Positions 1 through 3,086 of a stretch of DNA of 9,833 bases are shown piece after piece. This DNA comes from Methylophaga sp. GTDB taxonomy: Bacteria > Pseudomonadota > Gammaproteobacteria > Nitrosococcales > Methylophagaceae. Below the pieces are notes generated by a model. It did no database searches. It saw only the letters and a list, made by a program, of their open reading frames with translations, and had not been told where the DNA came from. The first letter of the stretch is position 1, and each line of letters opens with the position of its first letter. The DNA lies in assembly GCA_014762585.1 (NCBI GenBank), contig JABURN010000056.1, forward strand, positions 1-9,833, written 5' to 3'. The position numbers and the translations under genes were made by a program.

Positions 1-28
1 GGCAGCGTCAGAAGGGTAAAAGAGACAG
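1..28. other. Residual Nextera sequencing adapter (not genomic)
   Basis: These 28 bases align without gaps to the last 28 bases of the 33-base Nextera read-1 transposase adapter, which ends in the Tn5 mosaic end. Bases 1-12 (GGCAGCGTCAGA) and 20-28 (AAGAGACAG) are identical. The only mismatches are at 13, 15 and 19, where the adapter has T each time. The reverse-strand SucC reading frame stays open through this stretch but loses all resemblance to SucC exactly at base 28, giving DPVSFTLLT where the family has G-L/M-A-M-x-T-M-D. I read it as an untrimmed adapter at a contig end, with three errors. Confidence 0.9.
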
Positions 29-830
29 GGTCGGCACCATTCACCAGACAGGCGACATTACCATCGAGTGAGATGTAATTGAGACCGAATTCACGGGCAA
101 TCACCTCGGCGTCGTCTTCCTGAGACGGATCAAACATCTCAGCCAGATCGGCGTGACGGAACAGGCCGTTATCATCCAGATTTACCTTGGCATCAACAGC
201 CAGAAGATCGCCCTCGCCCGTCACCACCAGCGGGTTGACTTCCACCAGACTGGCATCGTTTTCGGTAAACAGCTGATACAGATTTTGCATTACCTGCTGC
301 AGTTGTTTGAAAGCTGCACCGCTGAGTCCCAGGAAGAAACCGGCACGGCGGCACTGATAGCTCTGCAGACCCACCACCGGATCCACATACAGGTTAAGAA
401 TCGCATCCGGATCTTCTTCTGCAACCGCTTCAATATCCATTCCACCCTGAGCGGAAATCATGAACACAATACGCTGACTGCTGCGGTCGAGCAGAACGGC
501 GAGATAAATTTCACGCTGAATATCAGTTGGCTTTTCTACCAGTACCTGGTTGACGGGCAAGCCTTCTGCGGTTGTTTGATGAGTAACCAGGCGCTGTCCC
601 AGCATGCCTTGCGCGGCATATTCAACAGCGTCCACGCTGTCTACAACCTTGACACCGCCAGCCTTACCACGGCCACCGGTATGTACCTGGGCTTTGACTA
701 CCCAGCGTTCACCGGTCAGTAATTCAGCGGCCTGTCTGGCCTCAGCAGCATCAGTCACTGCCTGCCCCTGCGGCGTCGGCACGCCGTAGCGGTTAAAGAG
801 TTGTTTAGCCTGAAATTCGTGCAGGTTCAT
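29..830 (-). CDS. sucC: Succinyl-CoA synthetase (ADP-forming) subunit beta, 3' end missing
   Basis: This is the beta subunit of succinate-CoA ligase, which with SucD interconverts succinyl-CoA and succinate with ATP or GTP formation in the cytoplasmic TCA cycle. The frame starts MNLHEFQAKQLF, the standard SucC N-terminus. It continues with the ATP-grasp fold: K46 in VVKAQVH, the nucleotide-binding loop GGRGKAGGVKV (about 52-62), AQGGMDIE (about 127-134) and the metal-binding EVNPLVV (about 197-203). About 267 of the usual ~388 residues are present; the rest, and presumably sucD, lie beyond the left edge. The start is set by the family N-terminus and by AGGA four bases upstream (minus strand, near 835-838). 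The last residue before the adapter is Asp, where the family has Gly (VNGAG), so the final genomic bases may also hold an error. Confidence 0.95.
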
Positions 831-2453: not shown

Positions 2454-3086
2454 ATGCGAATTTTAAGAAACGTACTGCTTGGTTTTCTACTGCTTACCGT
2501 TGGTATTGTTGCCCTGATGCTGATTCCCTCTCCGCAGGCCCCCGCAGAGAAACCCTGGGAAGTCACGGTGATGCCCGATGGCAACAGCCGCGTTCTGGGG
2601 ATTCATCTGGGACAAACCAACTATAAAACCGCGCAACAACAACTCGGGGAATTCGGTAAAACAGCCCTATTTGTTGATCCTGATGGTAGCCGCAGCGTGG
2701 AGGCTTATTTCGACAGTATCAATCTTGCCGGCCTGTCTGCCAAACTGGTGATGAATCTTGAGGTCGATGAGGACAGACTGCAAGCTATGCAAGCCCGTAC
2801 CGAGGAGGGTGAATATAAACCCAGTGGCGCCTATCAGTATCAACTGAGCGAGCAGGATCGAACCTTCCTGCTGGGCGTTCCGGTGATTGGTCTCACTTAC
2901 ATTCCATCGGTGCGACTGGATCGTGAAATGGTAAAGAGCCGTTTTGGCGAACCGGCACACAGCGAACAGTCAGAAAAGGATGAAAATGGCCGGGTCACTG
3001 AAACCTGGTTTTATCCGGACATTGGCCTCAGCGTAATATTCCAAACTGAGCAGAAAACGCTTTTAGTCTATCGCGCTACGCACTGA
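2454..3086 (+). CDS. Conserved-looking membrane-anchored protein of unknown function
   Basis: I do not recognise this 210-residue protein. Its N-terminus, MRILRN followed by a hydrophobic stretch at about 7-25 and then IPSPQAPAEKPWEV, is an uncleaved anchor or a signal peptide that might be cut after PQA, so the rest probably faces the periplasm. The soluble part is mixed alpha/beta with an acidic, charged surface (for example NLEVDEDRLQAM and SEQSEKDENGRVTETW) and no cysteines. There is no catalytic motif I can name. The phrase WFYPDIGLSVIF near the C-terminus and MPDGNSRVLGIHLG near the N-terminus look like domain ends. It starts 13 bases after the dtd stop and is probably in the pip-dtd transcript; the ribosome site (GAAG) is weak. 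The same frame is open from 2349 inside dtd, but the hydrophobic start and spacing support 2454. Its end overlaps the convergent GGDEF-EAL gene by 11 bp. Confidence 0.8.
   Translation: MRILRNVLLGFLLLTVGIVALMLIPSPQAPAEKPWEVTVMPDGNSRVLGIHLGQTNYKTAQQQLGEFGKTALFVDPDGSRSVEAYFDSINLAGLSAKLVMNLEVDEDRLQAMQARTEEGEYKPSGAYQYQLSEQDRTFLLGVPVIGLTYIPSVRLDREMVKSRFGEPAHSEQSEKDENGRVTETWFYPDIGLSVIFQTEQKTLLVYRATH

Follow-up and report, generated by a model that had tools for sequence, protein, structure and literature searches.

Bases 1-28 of a Methylophaga contig as a probable, error-bearing Nextera read-1 adapter remnant, with similar remnants at other contig ends of the assembly

The Tn5ME-A (Nextera read-1) oligonucleotide is made up of the read-1 arm and the 19-base Tn5 mosaic end (PMC4248319). 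Adapter carry-over has also been described for PacBio HiFi data in the work on HiFiAdapterFilt, which shares with the present case the point that adapter in reads harms assembly, but which concerns a different platform and a different adapter (PMC8864876). The window, that is, the whole stretch of DNA analysed here, comprises 9,833 nt of Methylophaga sp. (assembly GCA_014762585.1, contig JABURN010000056.1, referred to below as C20), and its first 28 bases align with positions 6-33 of Tn5ME-A at 25 of 28 positions. The three mismatches fall at bases 13, 15 and 19, leaving exact runs of 12 bases at the left and nine at the right, in agreement with an earlier note, made from the sequence alone, which had claimed a 25/28 match to the inner read-1 adapter, the leftmost 12 bases being exact, and a mosaic-end core at the right. 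When up to three mismatches were allowed, this was the single site in the 9,833-nt window, and no match was obtained in 200 shuffles. Bases 1..9 (+ strand) correspond exactly to the inner part of the read-1 arm (adapter positions 6-14), and bases 10..28 (+ strand) to the mosaic end, which carries all three mismatches and points inward, so that the insert begins at base 29. Relative to the oligonucleotide, the orientation is that expected when the insert directly follows the mosaic end; the window differs in being without the outer five oligonucleotide bases and in its three mismatches (PMC4248319). We put at about 0.97 the probability that a sequencing read continued past the end of a short tagmented fragment, and that its tail of Nextera read-1 adapter entered the assembly as genomic sequence, giving bases 1-28. 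They are an artefact of a known kind and not a biological feature. Arm and mosaic-end sequence are both present, the match lies at a contig end and points inward, and it is absent in relatives; adapter identity, orientation, terminal position and loss of SucC sequence were each borne out.

Immediately inside the junction, bases 29..830 (- strand) carry the 5′ two thirds of sucC, encoding the succinyl-CoA synthetase beta subunit and cut by the contig end. The domain was identified by Pfam as ATP-grasp_2, the closest database proteins among the matches listed are named succinate-CoA ligase beta subunit, and the closest named genomes are Methylophaga. The frame returned by the ORF finder (3-830, - strand, 276 residues) passes through the adapter to base 3, and its spurious extension (3..28, - strand) ends in the tail ..PVSFTLLTL, which, read from the sequence, is the adapter as encoded in the sucC frame after its three mismatches. 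In tblastn comparisons with 29 related loci, SucC homology ended at residue 266 (base 33) in all 29, and the HMMER match reached residue 269 at most. In the DNA itself the sucC reading extends as far as base 29, base 31 being the one mismatch, and a junction at 28/29 therefore fits. The window reads CLVNGADPVSFTLLTL where relatives have CMVNGAGLAMATMD, in 29/29 related loci and in 10/10 of the closest proteins fetched, which by the database listing are 95-99% identical over the real SucC part. At the same place in these 29 loci and ten proteins bases 1-28 were absent and normal SucC continued; other genomes with the 28 bases beside base 29, which the earlier note had said would speak against an adapter, were thus looked for in both sets and none was found. 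The expectation that annotation pipelines would extend sucC into the artefact held for a mechanical ORF finder only; no 276-aa protein was present among the best 120 of 7,998 protein matches listed, a set from which records of this genome may be absent. The rest of the window looks ordinary by Pfam, with an alpha/beta hydrolase, a D-Tyr-tRNA deacylase, a HAMP-PAS-GGDEF-EAL protein, a copper-type P-type ATPase and FixH between positions 1038 and 9648; the frame at 2454-3086 had no Pfam match. In a separate, one-contig genome (G022:C1:615479-616284) sucC occurs as two overlapping partial frames and contains an internal TGA, a frameshift that is either real or a sequencing error.

It had also been claimed that SucC breaks exactly at base 28, and this stood only in part: the 28/29 junction fits the DNA, but base 31 also looks erroneous, as base 47 probably does. 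Residue 267 is Gly in 29/29 loci and 10/10 proteins and Asp in the window (base 31). Residue 262 is Met in all 80 named loci, a set that overlaps in part with the 29 related loci, and Leu in the window (base 47); it is the sole departure of the window among 56 columns invariant in the 80 loci. Bases 31 and 47 are probably errors of the same poor read end, to judge from this conservation, and could instead be strain differences. Bases 29..47 (- strand) are genomic sucC with further probable read errors, and read damage probably reaches past base 28. Elsewhere in the gene, at SucC residue 71 (window 618-620, - strand), the window has Tyr where the ten closest proteins have Glu, Asp or Gln, which reflects a strain difference or an isolated error; since this residue lies far from the contig end, not every difference of the window is an end error.

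The whole assembly, consisting of 260 contigs and 2,367,704 bases, was searched for mosaic-end-like sites with up to three mismatches. Seventeen sites were found on 16 contigs, and none with the reversed control pattern. Two mismatches were present at 13 sites and three at the other four, with no site having zero or one. Each of the 17 points inward and is no more than 102 bases from the end of its contig; five are at base 1. Sequence outside the mosaic end was kept at 12 of the 17 sites and resembles an adapter arm to some degree in every case: C40 and one end of C103 have the full read-1 arm, C153 has the read-2 arm minus its first base, and the remaining sites with outer sequence have worn versions of an arm. 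T-rich tails extend beyond the arm in C40, C137, C148, C228 and C235, as might arise from reads that continue beyond the construct, and C103 carries a remnant at both ends. Contig ends were also aligned to both adapters, covering 200 of the 520 ends (left ends of contigs 1-140 and right ends of contigs 1-60). Thirteen of the 200 scored at least 13, compared with 11 for the best inner control and 10 for the best wrong-strand control; ends scoring 9-12 (e.g. C26, C47 and C101) were left uncounted because inner controls reach 11. This alignment identified C5, C22 and C48, none of which had come up in the mosaic-end search, and a 15-base search added C100. The suggestion in the earlier note that the mismatches are read-end errors is supported by the other 16 sites, which hold remnants of this adapter family, each with two or three mismatches of its own.

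The order of the contigs provides a further observation. Contigs 1-140 fall in length order except for C42, C48, C66, C95 and C126, each of which is shorter than its successor, and one end of each of the five has the mosaic end at base 1-2. By alignment, a mosaic end in this position was found in seven of the 140 contigs, namely these five together with C5 and C125. The overlap has a post-hoc hypergeometric probability of 5e-8, or about 1.3e-7 by hand when C100, whose right end is known only through the 15-base search, is added. As far as contig order and end sequence can tell, recognised adapter arms were probably clipped after the contigs had been ordered, leaving the worn mosaic end, and this clipping probably took place at submission. 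C20 itself is in length order, and the later clipping step is not claimed for it.

Two origins other than an adapter were weighed. Real genomic sequence that resembles the adapter by chance, in a strain whose sucC ends differently, has little to recommend it, since 200 shuffles gave no match, residues present in all relatives examined are lost here, and 16 further such sites occur at other contig ends; chance resemblance is exceedingly improbable and was rejected on the shuffles. The end of a natural Tn5/IS50-type insertion sequence, at which the contig was broken as at a repeat, has in its favour that the mosaic end is a hybrid of the IS50 ends and that natural look-alikes seem to exist, as in genome G080. 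There, 17 mosaic-end-like sites (up to two mismatches) were found. Several lie deep within contigs, and some form opposing pairs with a spacing of about 120 bases, e.g. C1:234263-234281 and C1:234385-234403; these sites are perhaps the ends of natural IS50/Tn5-like elements. A natural end would be expected to be without an arm, to occur as identical copies and to be accompanied by a transposase gene. In the present assembly, however, bases 1-9 are synthetic read-1 arm, which is no part of a transposon (PMC4248319), all 17 sites are found at contig ends with mismatches that vary from site to site, which is not the pattern of a single copied element, and sucC is uninterrupted in 29/29 related loci. 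A natural IS50/Tn5 end was accordingly rejected, given the synthetic arm and the differing copies, and we consider it scarcely credible at this locus.

Among adapter-based readings, the absence of clean copies has to be explained. From the 13:4 split, a fitted binomial gives an expectation of about 52 sites with zero or one mismatch, an estimate based on just 17 sites and a single error rate; none was observed, so something removed the clean adapter copies. Read trimming appears the likeliest filter, while collapse in the assembly graph or clipping at the contig level could contribute, or could produce the absence instead of trimming. Under graph collapse, exact copies would have merged as a repeat and only odd copies would have stayed on contigs, with no read trimming at all. 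This explains the missing exact copies as well, but does not sit well with assemblies elsewhere. The mosaic end (up to two mismatches) was found in 23 of 369 gammaproteobacterial genomes, including the present one, and 11 of the 23 list exact copies, mostly at contig starts; the reversed control gave a single match in each of G184 and G198 in this survey, and one in G288 when three mismatches were allowed. The exact 33-base adapter was found in at least 120 viral stretches, and 79 of the 80 sites fetched lie within 120 bases of the stretch end and point inward. Assemblies thus retain exact adapters when reads are untrimmed, and graph collapse as the sole filter is unlikely. A 3.1 Mb genome, G395, has 465 mosaic-end sites (up to two mismatches; 233 forward, 232 reverse), with ten listed places exact and several no more than 50 bases from the start of a contig, and is heavily adapter-contaminated. 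In G396 an exact mosaic end with a read-2-like arm (C1:1633346-1633364; L452) lies at least 1,500 bases from either end of a long contig and is possibly embedded in a join, as a chimera; likewise, bases 2154-2186 of the 4,734-base viral contig L131 are an exact 33-base Nextera adapter situated mid-way, a likely chimeric join.

The preferred reading, a read-through adapter tail that escaped trimming, can be set out as follows. The low quality of the read end would have introduced base-calling errors, seen as the mismatches. Trimming would tolerate at most about one error per 19-base mosaic end, leaving only reads with two or more errors, and at a thinly covered contig end such error-bearing reads would set the sequence. 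In other contigs, recognised arms would have been clipped after length sorting and the error-bearing mosaic end left behind. A/C exchanges account for 17 of the 38 mismatches across the 17 sites, and an exchange of this type fits Illumina base-calling confusion. A specific trimming program that permits one error in 19 bases was considered, but no program is named, since C48 begins with a mosaic end lacking one base, which a gap-tolerant trimmer permitting one error would have cut.

Other genomes show how frequent the pattern may be. In G166, G312 and G051 only copies with two or three mismatches were found when up to three were allowed (3, 1 and 5 sites, respectively), none of them more than about 101 bases from a contig end and most with an arm. 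The error-only pattern was thus present in 3 of 368 other gammaproteobacterial genomes, a count that leaves out G365, G115, G081, G202, G106, G367, G049 and G080, whose only matches have one or two mismatches. An exact search of viral contigs for the window's own 28-base variant gave no match, and the variant is therefore not recurrent among them. Among the titles listed by a literature search, none deals with deposited genomes that carry error-only adapter remnants, although such a paper may exist. We are inclined to think, with some reservation, that public genomes hold a hidden class of remnants that are exclusively error-bearing, from which trimming takes the clean copies and contig clipping the arms, and next to which some tens of bases are unreliable.

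For curation, roughly nine false residues are added to the sucC fragment and another two are in doubt; at least a dozen other contigs of the assembly need end trimming, and screens for the exact adapter or clipping of arms only will miss such ends. Beyond the earlier reading of an adapter fused to the start of the window, the bases adjoining it are doubtful too, and the fault is common to the whole assembly. The remnants in viral contigs and in other gammaproteobacterial genomes are likewise terminal and inward-pointing (79 of the 80 viral sites fetched), but the adapter is exact there, whereas it carries two or three mismatches at all 17 sites here.
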